Origin: an uncultured Clostridia bacterium
GTDB taxonomy: Bacteria; Bacillota; Clostridia; Oscillospirales; Ruminococcaceae
Assembly (NCBI GenBank): GCA_945921515.1
Contig: CAMEKR010000008.1
Location: 1 to 32,736 of the forward strand
Direction of reading: 5' to 3'
Length of the DNA: 32,736 nt
Position 1 is the first letter of the stretch. Every line of letters starts with the position of its first letter. This document shows, piece by piece, positions 12,835-32,531 of this stretch. The position numbers and the translations under genes were made by a program. The notes beneath the pieces are model-generated. The model saw only the letters and a program-made list of their open reading frames with translations, made no database searches and had not been told where the DNA came from.

Positions 12835-14322
12835 TTATTTCTGCACATTAGCGTCAATATCAGCAAATGTCTGGATAGCCTCTTTTATAGTCTTTTCGTG
12901 AGCCAGCATACCATACTTGTCAACTTCAGACTTGTTCTTTTCTCCGTGAGTAAGACAGCCTGCACCGCCTATACATCCGCCTATGCACGCCATACCTTCG
13001 ATAAAGTTATTAGGCAGAGCGTTCTTGGATGCACGCATAAGCGCACGCTTGCACTCTTCAATACCGTCGCAGGAAATGCCGTTAAGAACAAATTCTTCAT
13101 TGCCCTGTTCCTTAAGTGCTTCAGCTACCGCATCGGCGAGTCCTCCGCAGCGGGCAAATATTCTGCCGTAATATGAAGCGTTGTCAAGCGCAGTACCGTC
13201 AAGCTCAGCAAGCTCTATATCCTTGCTGTCAAATATAGCCTGAAGCTCTTCAAATGTCATCGCATAATCAACATAAGGCTTTACGGTATCCCACTTGACT
13301 TCCATTTTCTTTGCGGTGCAGGGACCTATGAACACTATCTTTGCTGTAGGATCGTTTTCCTTTATGTAGCGTGATATTTCCGCCATAGGCGAAAGATTGT
13401 GCGATATATTATCGTTAAGCGTCGGGAAGTATTGCTTGATATACATCACAAACGCAGGACAGCACGAGCTTGTAAGGAAGCCCTTTTCGGCAAGCTCCTG
13501 TGCCTCTTTGTATGCTACCATATCTGCACCCAGCGCCGCCTCTACAACGCTGTGGAAGCCGAGCATCTTTATGGCGGTAACCACCTGGTCGAGCTTTGCA
13601 TAGCTGAACTGGCTTGCTATAGAGGGTGCAACAACGGCATAAACCTTATAATTGCGGTTATTATCGCTTTTCTTCAGCATATCGATAATATCCACGATAT
13701 ATGACTTATCGCTGATAGCTCCGAAGGGGCAGGTATATACGCACGCACCGCAGGAAATACACTTGTCGTTATCGATATGTGCGGCGGCTGAGCTTGCGTC
13801 GTTAGCTCTTGAGATTGCACCTATCTTGCAGGCTCTCTCGCACGGACGCTTGAATTCAAGTATTGCTCCGTAAGGGCAAACCTTAGCACACTGACCGCAG
13901 TTTACGCACTTTGACTTGTCAATATGTGCCTTCTGGCGATCGTCAAAAGAGATAGCACCCATACGGCACACATCTTCACAGCGGTGAGCTATACAGCCTC
14001 TGCACGCCTCGGTGACATCATAACCGCCAACGGGGCACTCGTCGCAGGCGATATCTATTACTTCTATTACATTAGGGTTTTCGGGATCGCCGCCCATAGC
14101 GATCTTTATTCTTTCGGATACTATTGCTCTTTCTTTATAGATACAGCATCTCATGGTGGGCTTATCCTTGACGATGTTCTTTGCAACATCGTTGAAGAAG
14201 CTGAAAGAGTCAGCAGGCTTTTCCGTACCCTCGGTTGCCCATGCGTGTCTTGCAACCTCTCTTAACACCTTATACTTCAGATACTGCACCTTTGTGTCGA
14301 ATTTTTTCAGTTTCTTTTCCAT
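12835..14322 (-). CDS. [FeFe] hydrogenase, group B-like, monomeric
   Basis: This 495-residue iron hydrogenase has an N-terminal cysteine-rich region with several 4Fe-4S motifs (CDECP near 93, CRGC near 107, CVNCGQCAKVCP 139-150, CISCGACVYTCP 188-199). The H-cluster domain follows: L1 TSSCCPA (284-290), L2 GPCTAKK (333-339) and L3 GMACIGGC (443-450). All four H-cluster cysteines are present, as is the proton-transfer cysteine before the L1 ligand. The L2 and L3 wording (GPC instead of MPC, IGGCIGGAG) fits the group B class rather than group A. No NADH-binding partner is encoded nearby, so ferredoxin is the likely electron donor. It lies 92 bases after the phosphatase gene at the end of the rex cluster. 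The maturases HydE, HydF and HydG are not in this window. Confidence 0.9.
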   Translation of the reverse strand: MEKKLKKFDTKVQYLKYKVLREVARHAWATEGTEKPADSFSFFNDVAKNIVKDKPTMRCCIYKERAIVSERIKIAMGGDPENPNVIEVIDIACDECPVGGYDVTEACRGCIAHRCEDVCRMGAISFDDRQKAHIDKSKCVNCGQCAKVCPYGAILEFKRPCERACKIGAISRANDASSAAAHIDNDKCISCGACVYTCPFGAISDKSYIVDIIDMLKKSDNNRNYKVYAVVAPSIASQFSYAKLDQVVTAIKMLGFHSVVEAALGADMVAYKEAQELAEKGFLTSSCCPAFVMYIKQYFPTLNDNISHNLSPMAEISRYIKENDPTAKIVFIGPCTAKKMEVKWDTVKPYVDYAMTFEELQAIFDSKDIELAELDGTALDNASYYGRIFARCGGLADAVAEALKEQGNEEFVLNGISCDGIEECKRALMRASKNALPNNFIEGMACIGGCIGGAGCLTHGEKNKSEVDKYGMLAHEKTIKEAIQTFADIDANVQK

Positions 14323-14414
14323 AGTTCTCTTTTACGGCTCTTTGCCGCATACGCTCCTTTCGTTGTTACTTTTTCTTTTGTTCCGTCTGTTGTGCTTTTT
14401 TGATATCTCTTTTA

Positions 14415-15602
14415 TCAGAAATAGCTTACTTTTATCTTTTTGCCCATCGATTTAAGGCATTTGCTAAGCTCGTCTACAAGCTGCATTTTTATATTGAATG
14501 TGATAGGAAGATTCGGGTTCTGATGAGCCGCATTAACCGCCCTGCCGACATAGAAATTGATGTCGGTAGCGTCTTCAAACAGCATCCTCGCAATGCAAGA
14601 AGCACCGTCCTGCAAAATTGTCCAGTCGTCGTACAGCTTGTTCTCGCCGAGATAGTCCTTTGCGTAATCAAGCACTCTGCTTATCGTTACAACGCCCTCT
14701 GTTACAAGGTCAACGCCCTCGATAGTTGCCATCGGCGGTATATCGGGGCTGATATAATCAAGACAGGGTATTACAGGCTTGCCCAAAAACTGACCGGTCA
14801 GGGTGGATGTTGTGCCGCCGCAAACTATATGCTTTCCTTCTTTTGAGAAGAACAGCGTCAGCATCTTATTAAGGTCTTTGGGATCGGAGGGAGGACCTAT
14901 CATAAGGTTTACCTGCTCACGCTCACGAATCTTTATTACACCGACAGTAGTATCATCTCCCGGTGAGCCGCCGTACAGCCTTACGCACTCGTCAAGCAGT
15001 ATGGTAGCAAGCGCCTTTGCGGAGTATTCTCTGTCGTATACACCCTCCATAAATTCTATTATATTATCTCTCTGCCATCCAAAATTGAGCGATGAGCCGA
15101 CTCCGGCATAGATAGCGCCGTCGCTGGTAGTGATAAAGGTATCATCAAGCTTCAGCGGTATCTTTGAGTGATATATCGTCTTTCCGTCTATCTGATTTAT
15201 CGTTTTGGGATAATCGTAGTTCTTACCGTCACGCAGCATTATCACCTGCGGATTATCGTACTGAATTATCTCCGCCTCTTTGTTGTTTACCACTCTTATT
15301 ATTGTAAATGTAGAATATGCCACCTTTCGCACATCGCAGACGGGAAGAGTCGCCGCCATAGTAGCAACGCAGTCCTCAACGCTCATGCTGTTCGCCATCA
15401 TAGTGGATATTATCTTTGAAGTCAGAGTGGAAAGTATCGATGCCTTTACTCCGCTTCCAAGCCCGTCAGCAAGCACGAACACAATTGAGTTTTCGTCCTG
15501 TTCCACAAGCTCGACATGATCTCCGCATAGCTGTTCATCGTGCTTGTTTACGCTGAGATATCCGATATCGGTGCAGAAGCTGAACGCTTTACTGTTCATC
15601 AT
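14415..15602 (-). CDS. SpoIIE-type protein phosphatase in hydrogenase cluster
   Basis: This 395-residue protein has a PP2C/SpoIIE serine phosphatase domain at about residues 8-228. Metal-binding motifs are ADGLGSG (45-51), SDG (160-162) and GDDTT (215-219), so catalysis looks intact. A further 165-residue C-terminal domain (from about 232) is unfamiliar to me and contains GGTTSTL. There is no membrane segment, so it is not the sporulation SpoIIE. The ATG at 15602 (ATGATG) has AAGGAG 10 bases upstream and overlaps the sensory-hydrogenase stop by 14 bases, so the two are translationally coupled. Sensory hydrogenases and such phosphatases are known gene neighbours in Clostridia (compare the hfs operon of Thermoanaerobacterium), and probably signal in one pathway. 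No anti-sigma or STAS partner is visible here. Confidence 0.85.
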   Translation of the reverse strand: MMNSKAFSFCTDIGYLSVNKHDEQLCGDHVELVEQDENSIVFVLADGLGSGVKASILSTLTSKIISTMMANSMSVEDCVATMAATLPVCDVRKVAYSTFTIIRVVNNKEAEIIQYDNPQVIMLRDGKNYDYPKTINQIDGKTIYHSKIPLKLDDTFITTSDGAIYAGVGSSLNFGWQRDNIIEFMEGVYDREYSAKALATILLDECVRLYGGSPGDDTTVGVIKIREREQVNLMIGPPSDPKDLNKMLTLFFSKEGKHIVCGGTTSTLTGQFLGKPVIPCLDYISPDIPPMATIEGVDLVTEGVVTISRVLDYAKDYLGENKLYDDWTILQDGASCIARMLFEDATDINFYVGRAVNAAHQNPNLPITFNIKMQLVDELSKCLKSMGKKIKVSYF

Positions 15603-17271
15603 TTGACAGATTCTCCTTGAGCTTTGTAAGTGCGACCTTTGTTTCGGCGGTGGTTTCACCGAGAAGCGACGCAATCTCCTGTACTACACGCATCTGCTTT
15701 TCAATTACCTTGTCGGTTACTGCGATAGTCTCGGCGGCGTTCTTCTCACGCTTTGACCGTGAGATCTCTTCGCCCGTAATATCACGCATTATCGACATTA
15801 TGATATGATAACTCTTATCGTAGATTATCGTCTCTTCAACATATTTTCCGTATTCGGCGAGATATGTACGCTTGTTATGGATATCAACGCCTGTGGTCAT
15901 AACTTCAAGATAAGCTACCGGATCAAGAATACGCACTACCGGACATCCCATGATATCCGACAGACTCTTGATATTCATAATATCTCTTGCGGCCTTGTTT
16001 ATCTGCTGTACTTCAAGGTCTTCGCTCAGCACCATTATACCGTTGGGCGTGTTGTTTATTATGTTGTCGGAGAAGCTCTCGGCCTTTTCTTTAAGATACG
16101 GCAGACACATGGTAAGGTCTGCCTTGCCCTGAAGTATTGCTACCGCTTTTTCACGGCAGGTATCATAACCGCAGCTGCCGCAGTTGAGCTCCTGCGAAGG
16201 ATCGCTCTTGTTCATCTTGCGGAGTATCTCTTCTATAGCCTTACTACCGGGCATAGTCTTGGGCATACTGATAAACGGCATTGACTTAGTCATATCGCTG
16301 AGCTTCGGAGTATCGAATCTGCCGCTTCCCGCAAACTCATCTACCGCTCTTCTCTCGTGGATAACGCCTTCGTGCTTTTTATCCATTGCAGGGCCGCCTA
16401 TACAGCTGTTGACGCAGGCAGACATTTCGATAAAGCACTTTCCTACATTGCCTTCTATTATATCACGCAGTGCGTTGCGGCAGTTCTCCACGCCGTCTAT
16501 AGCCATATACAGATATTCCGGATTGTCCTTGTTCATTGAACGAAGAATGCCCGAAGTCGTGGGATACAGCCTTGTTTTTGCTCTGCCCTGCTTGTCGGTA
16601 TCGTCGCCTGTGGGCGAAACCTCTATGCTTTCATCCTTGAGCCAGCCTGTCAGCTCTTCAAAGGTAAGAACACAGTCTATAGCACCCTGATACGCTTCAG
16701 CCTCAGCCTTCTTAGATAGGCATGGACCTATGAATACCGTCTTGCATCCGGGATATTTCTTTTTCAGCACCTCTCCGTGTGCAAGCATGGGTGACTTTAC
16801 CTGTGCGAGCATCGGGAGCGCCTCGGGATAATATTTCTGAATAAGTGTGTTTACCGTGTGACAGCAGGAGCTGATGATAACATTATGCTCTTTGTCCGCA
16901 ACCAGCTTTTCGTACTGCTCGGTAACGAGCTGTGCGCCTTCTGCAGTCTCCTCTGTGCCGGCAAAACCGAGCTTTTTCAAAGCTTCGTTCATTGACGCAA
17001 GTCCGACGCCGTTATAGTTTGCCACAAATGACGGCGCAATGCTTACATAAACGGGGCTTCCCGATGCGATAAGTTCTTTTGCTTTGTCAACATCGTTTCT
17101 TATCTGCTTTGCGTTCTGAGGGCAAGCGACAAAGCACATACCGCACAGTATGCACTCATCCTCTACAATATTCGCCTGACCGTCAGAAAATTTAATTGAC
17201 TTGACGGGGCAATGTCTTATACACTTGTAACAGTTTTTACAATTTGATTTTTTCAGCCTTAAATAGCTCAT
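15589..17271 (-). CDS. Sensory group C [FeFe] hydrogenase with PAS domain
   Basis: This 560-residue protein begins with two 4Fe-4S motifs (CKNCYKCIRHCP 11-22; CILCGMCFVACP 40-51). An H-cluster domain follows with L1 SSCCHTV (134-140), L2 GPCLSKK (182-188) and L3 SACVNSC (284-290). Next come a further 4Fe-4S domain (C364, C367, C372, C389), a PAS domain (about 400-510) and a C-terminal helix likely to form a coiled coil. The cluster ligands are kept, but Pro after L1 is His and the L2 Met is Gly, as expected for low-activity sensory group C enzymes. It probably senses H2 or redox state and signals through the overlapping SpoIIE-type phosphatase. Its start lies 5 bases after the thioesterase stop and has AAGGTG upstream. 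Confidence 0.9.
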   Translation of the reverse strand: MSYLRLKKSNCKNCYKCIRHCPVKSIKFSDGQANIVEDECILCGMCFVACPQNAKQIRNDVDKAKELIASGSPVYVSIAPSFVANYNGVGLASMNEALKKLGFAGTEETAEGAQLVTEQYEKLVADKEHNVIISSCCHTVNTLIQKYYPEALPMLAQVKSPMLAHGEVLKKKYPGCKTVFIGPCLSKKAEAEAYQGAIDCVLTFEELTGWLKDESIEVSPTGDDTDKQGRAKTRLYPTTSGILRSMNKDNPEYLYMAIDGVENCRNALRDIIEGNVGKCFIEMSACVNSCIGGPAMDKKHEGVIHERRAVDEFAGSGRFDTPKLSDMTKSMPFISMPKTMPGSKAIEEILRKMNKSDPSQELNCGSCGYDTCREKAVAILQGKADLTMCLPYLKEKAESFSDNIINNTPNGIMVLSEDLEVQQINKAARDIMNIKSLSDIMGCPVVRILDPVAYLEVMTTGVDIHNKRTYLAEYGKYVEETIIYDKSYHIIMSIMRDITGEEISRSKREKNAAETIAVTDKVIEKQMRVVQEIASLLGETTAETKVALTKLKENLSNDEQ

Positions 17272-24486: not shown

Positions 24487-25806
24487 TCAATCGCCTTTTA
24501 CAAGCTGTTTGAAATGTTTTCCTCTCTCCTCGAAGTTTTTATAAAAGCCGTAGCTTGCCGCCGCAGGAGAAAGAATACAGCGTACTTTTGTTACCCTTTT
24601 TGCTTCTTCTACGGCTTTTGGCATATCGTCTGCAAATATCTTTTGTACAAGCGGATTAGTCACCTTTTCGGCGGCTCGTTTGCCGCTGTCGGGGAGTATT
24701 ATCAGATTTCTTACCGAAGTATCGGCATTAAGAAATTCCGAAAGCTCGTCATACGATATACCTCTGTCCATTCCGCCGATTATCAGCGTATCGGTATCGG
24801 GATATGCCTTCAGCGCCGCTATAGCGGTCTGCGGTGCAGTGCTTATGCTGTCATTGATATATTCCGCCCCGTTTATCGTACATACATATTCAAGTCTGTG
24901 TTCAAGTCCGGAGAAATCGGGAAGTGCTTCAAGGCATCTGCAAGCCGTACAGCCTGCCGATTCAGCCGCATACATCGCTATCGCTATGTTGTATAAGTTA
25001 TGCTCGCCTTTAAGCTTGGTATCTATCTTTTCCGCCGGGTAAAAATCGTCAAAGATGAATATACCGCCGTCTTTTGTACCGATATCACCGTAGGAAAAGC
25101 CTGCCGTTACTACTTTTGCTTTGGTATCAGCATATTGCTTTACTTCTTCACCTATTATCAGCGTATCCTTTTCACTCTGATAGCGGAATATGTTCAGCTT
25201 TGCGTTTGCGTATGCCTCAAAGCCGTCATAATGGTCAAGATGCTCGGGATAGATATTGAGCAGTACCGCAATATCGGGCGACGCTTTTACATATTCAAGC
25301 TGATGGCAGGACATCTCGCACACAATAACGCAGTCGTCTGTAAATTCTTCCCTGCGTTCAAGCGGAGGCACGCCTATATTGCCTATCAGCATGGTGTTCT
25401 TTCCGTTTTTTTCAAGGAAAAACTTTATCAGGCTCGATGTTGTGGATTTGCCCTTTGTTCCTGTGACACCGATTATTGTGCTTTCGCAAAATTGCAGAAA
25501 AAGGTCGGTCTGCGAGGTTATCTTCGCCTTGATATCATCGCCTACGCTGTTTTTTAGAGCTATACCCGGCGCTTTCATGATAATGTCGCAGTCTTTGTCA
25601 TAAAGGCAGGAGAGATAGTTCTCTCCGCAGCAAAGCGCACAGCCTTCTGCTTCGTCCTGCGGTACGGGATTCATATCTGCAACGGTTATTTTTCTGCAAT
25701 TGCATCCACGCAGAAGCGTGAGAGTTGAACGCCCCTCTCTGCCAAAGCCGAGAATAACCACGCTCTTCCCGTCAAAGAATGCTTTCAGCTTTTCATCTAT
25801 GGTCAT
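24487..25806 (-). CDS. murD: MurD-family muramyl ligase, probably MurD2-like (L-Glu adding)
   Basis: This 439-residue Mur ligase would add glutamate to UDP-MurNAc-L-Ala. The ATP loop is GTKGKST (116-122), the carbamylated lysine is probably K203 (NAKLNIF), and the C-terminal domain has SPAAASYGFYKNFEERG (413-429). In E. coli MurD, D-Glu is contacted by the lysines of DSKAT (319) and GGDGK (348); here the matching stretches are NDSIST (318-323) and GGMDRG (344-349), so both lysines are replaced. Ser415 and Phe422 equivalents are kept (S418, F425). This pattern, with a MurL-like gene directly upstream, fits MurD2, which uses L-Glu in Xanthomonas. A standard D-Glu-adding MurD remains possible. 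The murL-murD gap is 15 bases. Confidence 0.85.
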   Translation of the reverse strand: MTIDEKLKAFFDGKSVVILGFGREGRSTLTLLRGCNCRKITVADMNPVPQDEAEGCALCCGENYLSCLYDKDCDIIMKAPGIALKNSVGDDIKAKITSQTDLFLQFCESTIIGVTGTKGKSTTSSLIKFFLEKNGKNTMLIGNIGVPPLERREEFTDDCVIVCEMSCHQLEYVKASPDIAVLLNIYPEHLDHYDGFEAYANAKLNIFRYQSEKDTLIIGEEVKQYADTKAKVVTAGFSYGDIGTKDGGIFIFDDFYPAEKIDTKLKGEHNLYNIAIAMYAAESAGCTACRCLEALPDFSGLEHRLEYVCTINGAEYINDSISTAPQTAIAALKAYPDTDTLIIGGMDRGISYDELSEFLNADTSVRNLIILPDSGKRAAEKVTNPLVQKIFADDMPKAVEEAKRVTKVRCILSPAAASYGFYKNFEERGKHFKQLVKGD

Positions 25807-25821
25807 TTTATCATCTCTTTC

Positions 25822-27135
25822 TTATTTCAGCAGTCCGATAAGGTGCTGAGGAACGAAATTATCGGTATCAAAGTAATTCTCAAGGCTGTCCGGCTTTGAA
25901 GGCTCGGTATCCGTATATCTCCTTAAAAGCAAGGGCAACTCTTTGCCGCTTCGAAGCTCTGCCGCCATATACAGCGACAGTCTTACCTCGCTTTTTGTGC
26001 CGACGCATTCAAACGGCTTATCCGTGCCGTCAAGCACAAGTCCGTCGAACATATCGGCGTATTTTTCGCAGTCAAGCATATTCTTGCCGAAAATCTTAAC
26101 AAGCGTTTCATCGTCAAGGAATGCCGCAAGCAAGATATAAACATACAGGCACTTTGCGCAATCGGCGCACCATTTATCTGTCTTCGAGCCGAGATTACAG
26201 CTTAAGAATACCGGGAAATACTTGGGATATGCAACAAACTTCTTAGCGATCTGCCATTCGCTCCAAGGGCGCAGAAGGCTGAAATACTGTATACTGTCGT
26301 CAAGATAGCAAGTCACATATTCTCTGAAATCACGCTCAAACTCCGTACTCTTGCTGTACTGGTGGTTTATCTGTTTTCCGCTTACATAGGTCTCGTTTGC
26401 ACTGCTCTCATTGGATAGTACGATGTACTTTTTTCCGTAGATATACGCATAAAGATATGCGGAAAACGCAACAACTGCAGAAAACGGCGTATGTCCGTTA
26501 AGATAACCGTCTGCGTTGCGCTCGATAAGTGCCTTATCTATAGTTCTGCGGGGACCGACTATACAGTTATCGTCAAAGCCTGCGGTTTTAGCACAGGCAA
26601 CAGCGGCTCCGCCTTTATTTATTATGTAGCACATCGTATCATCGTGATACTGCCTTAACAGCTCCAGCGTCACTACGCTGTCCTTGCCGCCGCCGACCGG
26701 TACAAGATAGCCGTCTACCGTCTTATCGCACTTGCACAGGGGCATATCGCTGTTATCGGGTATTATCTGCATAAAGCTGTCAAAATCGGCGTCTATGCCG
26801 TTACGATAGAAAAACTCTCCGAGTCCGTTGAAGTAGAGCTTTTTCCACCACAGGCACTGCTCTTCGGTCAGCGAGCCGCACAAAACTCTGACAACAGGTG
26901 AGCAAGCGCACTTCCAGTAGCTGACAAGCTCCGCCATACCGATATTGAACACTATATTCTGAAGGAAAGGAGTCTTTTTCTCAAGCAATTTGCTTTCGGT
27001 CTTCCATGACGGGTAAAAGTCGTATCCGTCTATCGAAAAGTGGAAGAAAATACCGTCATCAGCTATATCAAAGCCGTGATAGATAAACTCTTTATGCTTT
27101 TCTCTGAGCATTCTGTACTTTTCGGCGTTATCCAT
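25822..27135 (-). CDS. murL: MurL-like UDP-MurNAc-L-Ala-L-Glu epimerase (putative)
   Basis: This 437-residue protein has an ATP-pyrophosphatase-type loop PVGGGKDS at 146-153, a second conserved stretch SNESSANE at 241-248, and a cysteine cluster C-x2-C-x2-C at 323-329 (WCADCAKC) that could bind zinc. These features and the length fit MurL of Xanthomonas, which converts the L-Glu of UDP-MurNAc-L-Ala-L-Glu to D-Glu using ATP, with AMP and PPi formed. The neighbouring MurD-like ligase with an altered glutamate pocket supports this strongly. Recognition is from remembered motifs, not a search. Another ATP-PPase enzyme (tRNA or cofactor thiolation) is the main alternative. It starts 8 bases after tmcAL. 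Confidence 0.7.
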   Translation of the reverse strand: MDNAEKYRMLREKHKEFIYHGFDIADDGIFFHFSIDGYDFYPSWKTESKLLEKKTPFLQNIVFNIGMAELVSYWKCACSPVVRVLCGSLTEEQCLWWKKLYFNGLGEFFYRNGIDADFDSFMQIIPDNSDMPLCKCDKTVDGYLVPVGGGKDSVVTLELLRQYHDDTMCYIINKGGAAVACAKTAGFDDNCIVGPRRTIDKALIERNADGYLNGHTPFSAVVAFSAYLYAYIYGKKYIVLSNESSANETYVSGKQINHQYSKSTEFERDFREYVTCYLDDSIQYFSLLRPWSEWQIAKKFVAYPKYFPVFLSCNLGSKTDKWCADCAKCLYVYILLAAFLDDETLVKIFGKNMLDCEKYADMFDGLVLDGTDKPFECVGTKSEVRLSLYMAAELRSGKELPLLLRRYTDTEPSKPDSLENYFDTDNFVPQHLIGLLK

Positions 27136-27143
27136 ATTTCCTC

Positions 27144-28301
27144 CTAAATAATAACGGGCTTTGAGGTGAACTCTGTACCGCAGGGCTGTCTTTTGTCAAG
27201 AGCAAGAGCGTACATATTTCCCGCCCGTTCTTCGAGTTTTGCAAAATGTGCCGCCTCGGGACCTGTCTTTGCAAGCGACGCAAGCGAAGTATCAACGGGC
27301 AGCTTATGCTCGCCTGCCGCAAGTATCTCTTTCCCTTTATCGTTCATTCCTAAAATTCTAACATAAGCGGGAGGATTTTTCAAGTCGTTTCCTGTAATTC
27401 CTAAGAAGGCGCAGAGTATAAGTCTGCGTATTCTCGCCATAGTGAAGTTTTTAGATTTTATCATCAGCATAAGCTGAGGCAGTGAGGTTGCTGTGCGCAC
27501 AGCCTTGTATATTCTGCTGTCCATACCGCCCGTGCCGTTGGGCAGGCGCTCAAACTCAGATTTTGACATAGTGCGGAGCTTTGCAAGTATAGCGGTCTCT
27601 ATGTTCTCAATATGTGCAAAACAGCCGTAATCGGTGAAGTCGGTATATGCGCTGACATCATTGCCGCCGCTGAGCATTGTCCTGAGCTTAGAGGCACTTA
27701 CGACAGTATCGCTTCCCTCGTCGCTGTCGTGAGCCGCACCGCTTCGCATTACCGTTACAGGCTTTATAATTCCACCGAGCTTATCAAGCGCACGGATATA
27801 TTCGACAGCAAGCGTGTTGTTAGGCTCGGTCAGCGTCTTTACAACATCGGGAGTATAATAAAGCTCTACCGTTTTCTTTAGCGCTAAGGGGTATGATTCG
27901 CCCTTTCGCATAGCGTCAAAGAACTCTTCGCATTCCGTCGCATAGTGTACTGCTCCTGCCGCTTCTTCAAGCACGGAAATATCGCCACACTCGCTCCCGA
28001 AGCTCAGCATATCGACACAGCCAAGAGCGTCTGCTATCCCGCACGCCCCCATAGCAAAATGCTCGGCGCTTGAGAGCGCAAACGGCGTGGGAAGCTCGAC
28101 CACAAGGTCTGCTCCGCCGCAAAGTGCGGCTCTTGCCCTGCTGTATTTATCGGCAATGGCAACATCTCCCCTCTGGGTGAAATTACCGCTCATTACGCAG
28201 ACGATATGAGTCGCTCCGTACTGCTTTCTCGTTTGCTCAAGATGATATTTATGTCCGTTGTGAAACGGATTGTATTCACATATTACTGCCGCTGTTTTCA
28301 T
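27144..28301 (-). CDS. tmcAL: tRNA(Met) cytidine acetate ligase TmcAL
   Basis: This 385-residue nucleotidyltransferase-fold enzyme forms N4-acetylcytidine at the wobble base of elongator tRNA(Met) from acetate and ATP. The N-terminus has the hallmark AAVICEYNPFHNGHKYHLEQTR with the HxGH motif; ICVMSGNFTQRGDVAI-type and SFGSECGD segments follow. An open frame extends to 28382, but the ATG at 28301 has GAAAGGAA just upstream and matches the family start. It heads the operon tmcAL-murL-murD. It is divergent from ackA, whose product makes acetate, the substrate of TmcAL. Confidence 0.93.
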   Translation of the reverse strand: MKTAAVICEYNPFHNGHKYHLEQTRKQYGATHIVCVMSGNFTQRGDVAIADKYSRARAALCGGADLVVELPTPFALSSAEHFAMGACGIADALGCVDMLSFGSECGDISVLEEAAGAVHYATECEEFFDAMRKGESYPLALKKTVELYYTPDVVKTLTEPNNTLAVEYIRALDKLGGIIKPVTVMRSGAAHDSDEGSDTVVSASKLRTMLSGGNDVSAYTDFTDYGCFAHIENIETAILAKLRTMSKSEFERLPNGTGGMDSRIYKAVRTATSLPQLMLMIKSKNFTMARIRRLILCAFLGITGNDLKNPPAYVRILGMNDKGKEILAAGEHKLPVDTSLASLAKTGPEAAHFAKLEERAGNMYALALDKRQPCGTEFTSKPVII

Positions 28302-28382
28302 AAAATTTCCTTTCGCCCGATAAAACCGCATTTTTACGGAATATGATGTCCGTACATTAATTTTTTCGGTATCTGTAATCAA

Positions 28383-30516: not shown

Positions 30517-31488
30517 TTATTTGCCGGTAATAACGATCGAGCCGCTTGACACTTTTGCGCCGATATTGGCAGAACCGCTGCCGAACTGTGTTTTTCCGCT
30601 GCCGGTAAGCCTTGTTGCAAAGTCCGGCGTATCTATCTTGACAGATCCCGAAGCTACCGAGTAATCGATCGTTCCTCCCGCATTTTCGGGAACGGCAAAT
30701 TCAAGTCTGCCGCTTGCAACATATCCTGTGATATCGCCGCTAAGCTCGTCAAAGCCAAGCGTAAGACTGCCGGAAGTAACATTGGCATAAGTGTTTCCGC
30801 AAAGACCGTTTGAACTCATTGAGCCCGATGTTACATCGTAGCTGTTGTCTGCGCATACAAATCTGTCGAGAGTTATGCTTCCGCTGGTGCAGTTTGCTTT
30901 TACCGAGTCAAGCGATGTTCCTCTGTTTGCTATAGTTACATCGCCCGAAGCGACGCTGAGCGAAAACTTTTTCGTATCTACCGTTGTACCGCTTACTTTT
31001 CCGCTTGCCACATATATATCCGTTTCATCCGAACACTTAGGAATATCGCCGTCTATCGATCCCGAAGCAAGCTTTATGCCAACTTTGCTTAATACCGCTT
31101 CGCTCCTGAACCTTTCGGGGAGCGTTATTGATATCTCGTTATACAGCGAGCCGAATAACGCAAAGAACGAAAAAGCCGTCTTTTCTCTTATACCGAGTAC
31201 GCCGTTCTCCATATTGCAGTCAAGCTCTCTGTTCTTTCCCGTTGTGCGATAAACAACGGTTATCTTTTCTTCACCGCCGTATAGAACCATCGTCTTTGCG
31301 CTTGCTATGTCAAGCGACAGCTCCGTTACAAATGAATCAAATTCATAATTATATGTCTGCATTTCTTTTTCCACCCTTTCAAATATTGCGTCATAGCCTT
31401 GTGCAAGTACCGGCACCGATACAACGGTACCGCCTATGATACCCGTAACAAGAAGAATTATTGATACGATAAGAATTATCTTTTTCAT
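30517..31488 (-). CDS. DUF4097-like beta-repeat envelope protein
   Basis: This 323-residue protein has an N-terminal membrane segment or signal (residues 3-28, KKIILIVSIILLVTGIIGGT). From about 130 to the end it has a repeated pattern in which ASG or TSG followed by S, K, D or R recurs roughly every 18-24 residues (LASGSIDG, VASGKVSG, VASGDVTI, CTSGSITL, VTSGSMSS, VTSGSLTL, VASGRLEF, VASGSVKI, VSSGSIVI). This is the repeating beta-strand ladder of DUF4097/YvlB-LiaG-like proteins. It is probably exposed on the outer face of the membrane. The function of the family is unclear, with links to cell-envelope stress. Its ATG overlaps the upstream DUF1700-like stop by one base. Confidence 0.88.
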   Translation of the reverse strand: MKKIILIVSIILLVTGIIGGTVVSVPVLAQGYDAIFERVEKEMQTYNYEFDSFVTELSLDIASAKTMVLYGGEEKITVVYRTTGKNRELDCNMENGVLGIREKTAFSFFALFGSLYNEISITLPERFRSEAVLSKVGIKLASGSIDGDIPKCSDETDIYVASGKVSGTTVDTKKFSLSVASGDVTIANRGTSLDSVKANCTSGSITLDRFVCADNSYDVTSGSMSSNGLCGNTYANVTSGSLTLGFDELSGDITGYVASGRLEFAVPENAGGTIDYSVASGSVKIDTPDFATRLTGSGKTQFGSGSANIGAKVSSGSIVITGK

Positions 31489-32114
31489 TAAAATCCCGCC
31501 TTTCTGCCGGTAAACGCCTTAACATGAAAACGGGCTATACTTTTAATTATTCCCATATAGCCCTTTACAATGTTCGTCACAAACACCGACATAATACCGC
31601 CGAGTCCCAAAACCGCCATTCCCGAGAACAAGCCGAACAAGCTGCCGAACATCAGATTTGTCAGCGACTCGGAAACTCCGGGGATAAAAGCTATAACCAT
31701 ACTAACCGCACCCGAAACCACCAAAGCAAAAGCGACCGCAATGTATGCAATCACAAGCACAAGAAGCGTCGGAATAGCCCACGAATATACGAAAATATCA
31801 AGACATAACGCCGCCGTGATAAGTCCTGCACTTGCCTTTGGTGCGGCTTCACGATTAGCCATAATATTTCCGCAATCGTTTACCGCATTAATAACGGGCG
31901 GAGGTAATTCGCAACCGTTATCCTGGATATACGCCTCGGCTATTTCTTCGGGCGAGCCGAGCTTTTCGCATATCTCCTGCTCTGTAAGACCGTTTTCAAG
32001 TCCTTCGGAAAAATGCTGTTCGATATCTTCGATTATTTCATCTGCAGGCAATGACATCTGCCTGAACCTATCTGTAAGAGCAGACATAAATTCCGCCTTT
32101 GTTGAGTATATCAT
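31488..32114 (-). CDS. DUF1700-like (HAAS) membrane protein
   Basis: This 208-residue protein has an N-terminal helical HAAS-like domain (residues 1-65; FMSALTDRFRQMSL, EIIEDIEQHFSEGLENGLTEQEICEKLGSPEEIAEAY). Three or four membrane helices follow between about 95 and 190 and the tail is short and basic. Such proteins are encoded next to PadR regulators and are thought to work with them in envelope regulation. AAAGGAAG lies before the ATG. It lies 13 bases after padR and overlaps the DUF4097-like gene, so the three form one unit. Confidence 0.88.
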   Translation of the reverse strand: MIYSTKAEFMSALTDRFRQMSLPADEIIEDIEQHFSEGLENGLTEQEICEKLGSPEEIAEAYIQDNGCELPPPVINAVNDCGNIMANREAAPKASAGLITAALCLDIFVYSWAIPTLLVLVIAYIAVAFALVVSGAVSMVIAFIPGVSESLTNLMFGSLFGLFSGMAVLGLGGIMSVFVTNIVKGYMGIIKSIARFHVKAFTGRKAGF

Positions 32115-32127
32115 ACTGATCTTCCTT

Positions 32128-32442
32128 TCATATTGATTTCTCCAGAATTTTGTTTACCGACGCATAAAAAGAGTTCCACTCGTCAAGCTGTTCTTTGAGC
32201 TTAACTCTGCCGATATCGGTGATGGAATAGTATTTTCTCGGAGGTCCCTCTCTTGACTCCACGAGATATGAAGTAATGCTCCCATCATCCTTAAGCCGTT
32301 TCATAAGCGGATATATCGTTCCCTCGGTTATATGTATGCAGTCGGAAATCTCATTGACAAGCTCATAGCCGTAGCAGTCCCGCCGTGATAACACAGACAG
32401 CACGCAAAGCTCAAGAGTGCCTCTTTTAAGCTGAGAATTCAT
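32128..32442 (-). CDS. PadR family transcriptional regulator
   Basis: This 104-residue PadR-type repressor has a winged helix (LKRGTLELCVLSVLSRRDCYGYELVNEI, then TEGTIYPLMKRLKDDGSI and REGPPRKYYSITDIGR) and a short C-terminal dimerisation helix. I chose the ATG at 32442, with AGGTAAGG upstream, over the frame start at 32493, because the family begins with the sequence after this Met. It probably represses its own operon through the symmetric site at 32533-32577. Confidence 0.93.
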   Translation of the reverse strand: MNSQLKRGTLELCVLSVLSRRDCYGYELVNEISDCIHITEGTIYPLMKRLKDDGSITSYLVESREGPPRKYYSITDIGRVKLKEQLDEWNSFYASVNKILEKSI

Positions 32443-32531
32443 AATTATAACCTTACCTTTCCTTTGAGGCGGTTTGTGCATTTCAATATGCAAAACACAC
32501 TCTCGCCTCTTACTCGGCTTTTTGTGATTCT

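Follow-up and report, generated by a model that had tools for sequence, protein, structure and literature searches.

Peptidoglycan almost universally contains D-glutamate (D-Glu) as a building block, and the locus described here raises the question of how it is made in a bacterium whose genome yields no glutamate racemase gene (murI). The window, by which we mean the whole stretch of DNA analysed, comprises 32,736 nucleotides (positions 1 to 32,736 of contig CAMEKR010000008.1, assembly GCA_945921515.1) from an uncultured, gut-type Clostridia bacterium and carries a murL-like gene next to a gene for a MurD-family ligase. We consider it most likely, at a probability of roughly 0.9, that a MurD2-MurL pathway encoded by this pair supplies the peptidoglycan D-Glu of the host, its activity being read from sequence. 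This reading is based on gene content, sequence and residue signatures, an anticorrelation between MurL and murI, natural fusions and a predicted fold.

A first-pass annotation of the window, made from the letters alone, had proposed a MurL-MurD2-like pair. Both open reading frames (ORFs) are present, encoding 437 and 439 residues on one strand with 15 nt between them, the MurL-like gene directly before the ligase gene, with AGGAGG just 5′ of the MurL-like gene. The GGGKDS and SNESSANE motifs pointed out in that annotation are real, the latter at residues 241–248 of the 437-residue protein, while its cluster of three Cys has four conserved members. The pair and its motifs are located as follows.

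25822..27135, minus strand: murL-like gene, 437-residue ORF matching the MurL model NF041275
24487..25806, minus strand: murD gene (MurD2-type), 439-residue ORF matching TIGR01087
26677..26694, minus strand: MurL PP-loop GGGKDS, residues 148–153, predicted ATP phosphate-binding loop, invariant in 87 aligned rows
26149..26202, minus strand: MurL S-C(x)9-C-xx-C-xx-C (C313, C323, C326, C329), predicted metal (zinc) site, the Cys invariant in 87 aligned rows
25234..25248, minus strand: MurD2 PEHLD, with Glu at E. coli MurD position 182, a specificity residue according to the available text of PMC8788868
24760..24777, minus strand: MurD2 GGMDRG, with Arg at E. coli MurD position 348, a specificity residue according to the same source

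The reactions of MurD2 and MurL are known for characterized homologues, and an acyl-adenylate step is the hypothesis of a review (PMC8788868, available text). By this route, the epimerization of glutamate to D-Glu would take place on the cell-wall precursor, after MurD2 has attached L-Glu. MurL would use ATP to adenylate the α-carboxylate of the attached L-Glu, with release of AMP. Glutamate racemase MurI (TIGR00067) likewise supplies D-Glu for peptidoglycan, but acts on free glutamate (PMC8788868, available text).

The assignment of the 437-residue protein begins with NF041275, its sole NCBIfam match at E ≤ 1 (E = 1.7e-71), which aligns residues 70–408 with profile positions 69–409 of 447; no other ATP-PPase family, the alternative that the first-pass annotation had itself raised, gave a better match there at this threshold. 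The protein is 34.8% identical over residues 71–413 to the annotated MurL of Xanthomonas sacchari (NZ_CP010410), which keeps 50 of the 62 residues invariant in 87 aligned rows (window included). These encompass GGGKDS, the SNE of SNESSANE and the four Cys, motifs whose invariance means that they are not there by chance; KPFECVG is also common to the Xanthomonas and window proteins. The MurL identity that had been suggested from motifs is thereby supported. NF041275 (MurL_Xanthmoales equivalog) was built for Xanthomonadales, and its 700-bit cut-off is reached in none of the 119 relatives surveyed (host included). On sequence comparison, we claim the protein as a clostridial MurL homologue outside that equivalog.

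A model of the protein predicted with AlphaFold2 (mean predicted local distance difference test score, pLDDT, 93.9) resembles the QatC/QueC PP-loop enzymes, and appears to combine a QueC-like fold with an SGGxDS-type loop and a Cys4 site. Counterparts in QueC are an SGGxDS loop and a C(x)8CxxCxxC motif that binds zinc (PMC13329287, available text); the word MurL occurs neither in that paper nor in a second one on the QueC family. Structural alignments with QueC, QatC and Cap9 give 10–18% identity. Unlike those ATPases, the window protein has a cell-wall gene context, and unlike QueC (7-cyano-7-deazaguanine synthase), it matches no QueC family model at E ≤ 1. Sequence searches for a link to solved structures returned little: phmmer found no relative of a solved structure at E ≤ 1, and an alignment-profile search (A1) at E ≤ 10 returned TtuA/PH0300 entries only, at 0.013 over 49 positions. 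The predicted fold fits carboxylate adenylation by MurL.

In the ligase, the identity of a few residues is informative. Glu197 and Arg358 of X. oryzae MurD2 set L-Glu specificity, and mutation of both to the E. coli residues renders the enzyme D-Glu-specific (PMC8788868, available text). At E. coli positions 182/319/348, the window MurD and X. sacchari MurD2 both align as E/I/R, and in both loci murL is directly followed by murD, so that the MurD2 part of the original proposal is also supported. The MurDs of MurL-positive relatives are E/I/R in 59 of 60 cases and D/V/R in one, and those adjoining MurL in a scan of genome_contigs are E/I/R (68/72) or D/I/R (4/72), some genus genomes being present in both sets. 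The latter 72 come from 80 loci, seven being without an adjacent MurD and one MurD (L213) being cut by a contig end. Among MurL-negative relatives, by comparison, Lys348 is found in 42 of 42 MurDs and Asn182 in 41; these controls exclude G114, whose MurD is truncated, and G096. In a sample of the class outside the host genus, 12 of 13 MurL loci have an adjacent MurD with Arg348 accompanied by Glu (10) or Asp (2), and no MurD is seen in the stretch of L271, the thirteenth. Position 416 separates the clostridial sets as well, with Tyr in all 132 MurL-linked MurDs and Phe in all 42 controls. The MurD listing at E 1e-45 contained none for 18 of the 119 relatives; a renewed search of 14 of these found a MurD at E ≤ 1e-20 in 12 and none in G041 and G043, and G017, G044 and G053 have a MurD beside MurL.

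A phylogeny, one of the checks that the first-pass annotation had suggested, was computed for the ligase from 73 rows, including 21 of the 42 controls. With the specificity columns removed, it places the window ligase together with the MurL-linked MurDs on one side of a branch with a Shimodaira–Hasegawa-like approximate likelihood ratio test (SH-aLRT) support of 96. The window ligase, like canonical MurD (TIGR01087), is a full-length Mur ligase above the model cut-off, but differs in Glu/Arg at 182/348 and in lying on the opposite side of that branch.

Where else the host might obtain D-Glu was addressed by profile searches of its metagenome-assembled genome (MAG; 2.19 Mb, 213 contigs, 98.9% complete). 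This is a Ruminiclostridium-like MAG and not, as the first-pass annotation had it, a member of the genus Clostridium. The murI model TIGR00067 has no match in it even at E ≤ 1; the Xanthomonas pair is likewise found with no detectable murI. No D-amino-acid transaminase exceeds its cut-off, the one aminotransferase-IV protein being ilvE_II, and one MurD, with no second, exceeds its own. Since murC and murE are present over cut-off, together with a murF-like protein at 232 bits (under its cut-off of 288.6) and one resembling MurT at 209 bits (under its cut-off of 800), the host is expected to need D-Glu. With neither murI nor a D-amino-acid transaminase found, MurL-MurD2 is probably the sole route to D-Glu in this host, rather than the second route that had been supposed.

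The relation between MurL and murI extends beyond the host. MurL occurs in 72 of the 119 relatives, namely, in 68 of 71 genomes of the same genus and in G081, G085, G097 and G107. None of these 72 has murI over cut-off, in contrast to 40 of the 47 MurL-negative relatives. In a second set, the corresponding figures are 0 of 52 MurL-positive and 27 of 28 MurL-negative genomes, the positives being 13 class genomes and the genomes of 39 of the best 80 genome_contigs loci, and the negatives having handles within G511–G541 and counting as MurL-negative since the samples list every match. MurI was thus over cut-off in no surveyed MurL-positive genome. Fisher p values for the anticorrelation are tiny but ignore relatedness, and the genomes are not independent events, 68 of the MurL-positive ones representing one genus. 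A fairer reading is given by contrasts within family f1 (g1 versus G071), within family f2 (G097 versus G072 and G115) and within genus g308 of family f164 (G696 versus G514). In f2, locus L078 of the MurL-positive G097, whose family members G072 and G115 have murI, encodes a MurD with Asp/Val/Arg at 182/319/348.

Seven MurL-negative relatives have no murI over cut-off (G040, G043, G046, G075, G080, G082 and G098). Two of them, G040 and G046, have a MurD with E/I/R, and so their assemblies may lack a MurL that the organisms possess. G080 has a transaminase-like match; matches of this D-amino-acid-transaminase-like kind above 200 bits, all under cut-off, were found in five of the 119 relatives, all five MurL-negative. 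The MurL-negative exception of the second set, G513, is a 0.9 Mb genome of estimated 100% completeness with no match to murI or MurL.

MurL in Clostridia is patchy yet widespread, and is not unique to the host. A sample of the phylum had MurL in one of 398 genomes, the host itself, but the rarity that this suggested was overturned by a class sample (17 of 393 genomes, 12 of 219 genera) and by the genome_contigs scan, which confirmed MurL at 579 or more places. Since the queries of that scan were clostridial and the 80 best of these places were retained, it says little on other phyla. Among these best 80, the nearest named records to the host locus are MAGs labelled Ruminiclostridium, Oscillospiraceae or Clostridia, and the entries not labelled as MAGs include Eubacterium sp. 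ER2, Lachnoclostridium sp. An118, Mordavella massiliensis An582 and the cultured Ruminococcus flavefaciens XPD3002; none of the genomes of these four has murI over cut-off. MAG labels of Roseburia (L183), Alistipes (L229) and Bacteroidetes (L250) may be wrong.

Previous accounts describe MurL as limited to relatively few genera (PMC8788868, available text), in Gammaproteobacteria, Alphaproteobacteria and Actinobacteria (PMC8788868 and PMC5808125, available text); orthologs of low similarity are listed for a fungus, cyanobacteria and an amoeba (PMC5808125, available text). Among the papers listed, no title or abstract opening tying MurL to Clostridia was found, and several of the full texts contain "MurL" along with "Ruminococcus" or "Clostridia". 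The first-pass annotation had considered that use of the pair in a Clostridium would be notable; being widespread in Clostridia and not confined to Proteobacteria and Actinobacteria, it is less exceptional than had been thought. MurL-like genes approximately 32% identical to the window MurL were also seen on Pseudonocardia plasmids (L277:3764-5164 and L278:3689-5083), annotated as hypothetical and adjacent to a gene with WD40 repeats; the displayed stretches around them contain no murD.

Linkage of the two genes is common. A MurD lies directly 3′ of MurL on the same strand at 73 of the best 80 genome_contigs loci, in three of them fused. In some genomes of the host genus (G003, G006, G010, G021, G051, G065 and G067), MurL and a MurD of the E/I/R or D/I/R type are on separate contigs. 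MurL and MurD form a single frame of 840–1019 residues in five genomes of three families, at the following loci.

L079: genome G085, family f15
L080: genome G054, family f1
L081: genome G045, family f1
L082: genome G015, family f1
L273: genome G530, family f180

In the predicted model of the 840-residue fusion, the domains fold well (pLDDT 93.3), and because the predicted template modelling score (pTM) is 0.70, no claim is made on the relative orientation of the two active sites. Such fusions in relatives of the window set it apart from the Xanthomonas pair, as do the identities of 34.8% (MurL) and 26.6% (MurD) to X. sacchari and the placement of the host in Clostridia.

A number of observations weigh against a MurD2-MurL pathway. 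The 437-residue protein scores 241 bits against the 700-bit cut-off of NF041275. The ligase scores above the threshold of the ordinary murD model (TIGR01087, 298 bits, cut-off 211.95), which would equally be expected of a D-Glu ligase, and shares no more than 26.6% identity with X. sacchari MurD2; when the latter is included in the tree, support is SH-aLRT 92 with a long branch and a weak placement. Position 319 does not discriminate, being Ile in 40 of the 42 controls, and Arg at 348 is also found in Streptococcus agalactiae MurD. A control MurD from a MurL-negative genome with murI (L058, G104) has Glu182 but Lys348, so that Glu182 alone is not diagnostic. At 414/416, the window has Ala/Tyr where X. 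sacchari has Pro/Phe, a departure from MurD2; these positions are not taken as MurD2-defining because their mutation left MurD2 stereospecificity unchanged (PMC8788868, available text). Matches to the murI model under its cut-off occur in 17 of the 52 MurL-positive genomes of the second set (19.8 to 108 bits) and in three of the 72 MurL-positive relatives (21.8 to 35.6 bits), the strongest being that of G898 (L223; 108 bits, positions 1–218), possibly a diverged murI or another racemase. That a murI was missed in the 213-contig host MAG is unlikely but possible.

One alternative is that the window encodes an ordinary D-Glu-adding MurD beside a PP-loop ATPase with some other job, the D-Glu coming from an undetected racemase, a DapF-type activity or uptake. 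In Chlamydia, a bifunctional DapF that also acts as a glutamate racemase has been reported (PMC5885031, available text), and the murD-model score and the weak racemase-like matches of some MurL-positive genomes point the same way, although the host genome has no such match. We regard this explanation as quite improbable: MurL anticorrelates with murI and adjoins or is fused to MurD, the residue signature of the ligase is common to X. sacchari MurD2 and absent from the 42 control MurDs, and in the host no murI was found, a single MurD exceeds the cut-off of its model and no D-amino-acid transaminase does so. Somewhat less improbable, though still unlikely, is a mixed specificity in which the ligase accepts L-Glu as well as D-Glu and MurL has at least one other D-Glu source beside it, a possibility partly compatible with the MurD2-MurL pathway. 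The MurD of S. mutans, which has Arg at the equivalent of 348, uses L-Glu to a slight extent (PMC8788868, available text), and Asp182 recurs in MurL-linked MurDs (1/60 in relatives, 4/72 in genome_contigs and 2/12 in the class sample). The window MurD combines Glu with Arg, however, and the searches for murI and transaminase found no D-Glu source in the host genome.

The least probable alternative, to which we give very little credence, holds that the 437-residue protein is a member of some other PP-loop family (QueC, QatC, LarE or DUF6395) and shares no more than a resemblance with MurL. Pfam offers no significant family, the best being DUF6395 at 0.052, and no QueC or LarE match was found at E ≤ 1 in NCBIfam or Pfam. 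A QatC-like defence function was rejected, three MurLs giving no PADLOC match at E ≤ 10. Against this alternative stand the strength of the MurL match, the 50 of 62 invariant residues kept by X. sacchari MurL and the position of the gene beside or fused to MurD; the QueC-like fold, moreover, is compatible with MurL itself being QueC-like.

Directly upstream of murL, at a distance of 8 nt, lies a further gene.

27144..28382, minus strand: nucleotidyltransferase gene (NF010191, 314 bits, cut-off of 360 not reached)

We take this gene to be of the tmcAL type and, judged by position only, an operon partner of murL; part of the relatives have the gene order ackA′ tmcAL murL murD (lon). Elsewhere in the window, a gene for a monomeric [FeFe] hydrogenase and a second gene related to it are found at 12835-17271, near what is presumably a Rex-like regulator, named from its ORF. 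At 30517-32493, a LiaG-family-like gene (95.5 bits, under cut-off) has neighbours that we assume, again from their ORFs, to be DUF1700-like and PadR-like.

The pathway itself was already known; what is new is its clostridial spread with apparent replacement of murI, the fusions and the fold. More broadly, we lean toward the view that MurL is an adenylating enzyme of the QueC/QatC fold and that the MurL-MurD2 unit, fused in several lineages, has repeatedly replaced the racemase across Clostridia, probably moving as a unit. The QueC-like predicted fold would provide a structural basis for the proposed ATP-driven epimerization. For MurL-linked MurDs, the label "D-glutamate ligase" conferred by the murD model is probably wrong. 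If true, the MurL-MurD2 route may also explain gut species reported without murI, such as Roseburia intestinalis, whose genomes appeared to be without murI and for which a D-Glu requirement or an altered wall was suggested (PMC7478625, available text). Because MurL is widespread in Clostridia, that puzzle becomes testable.

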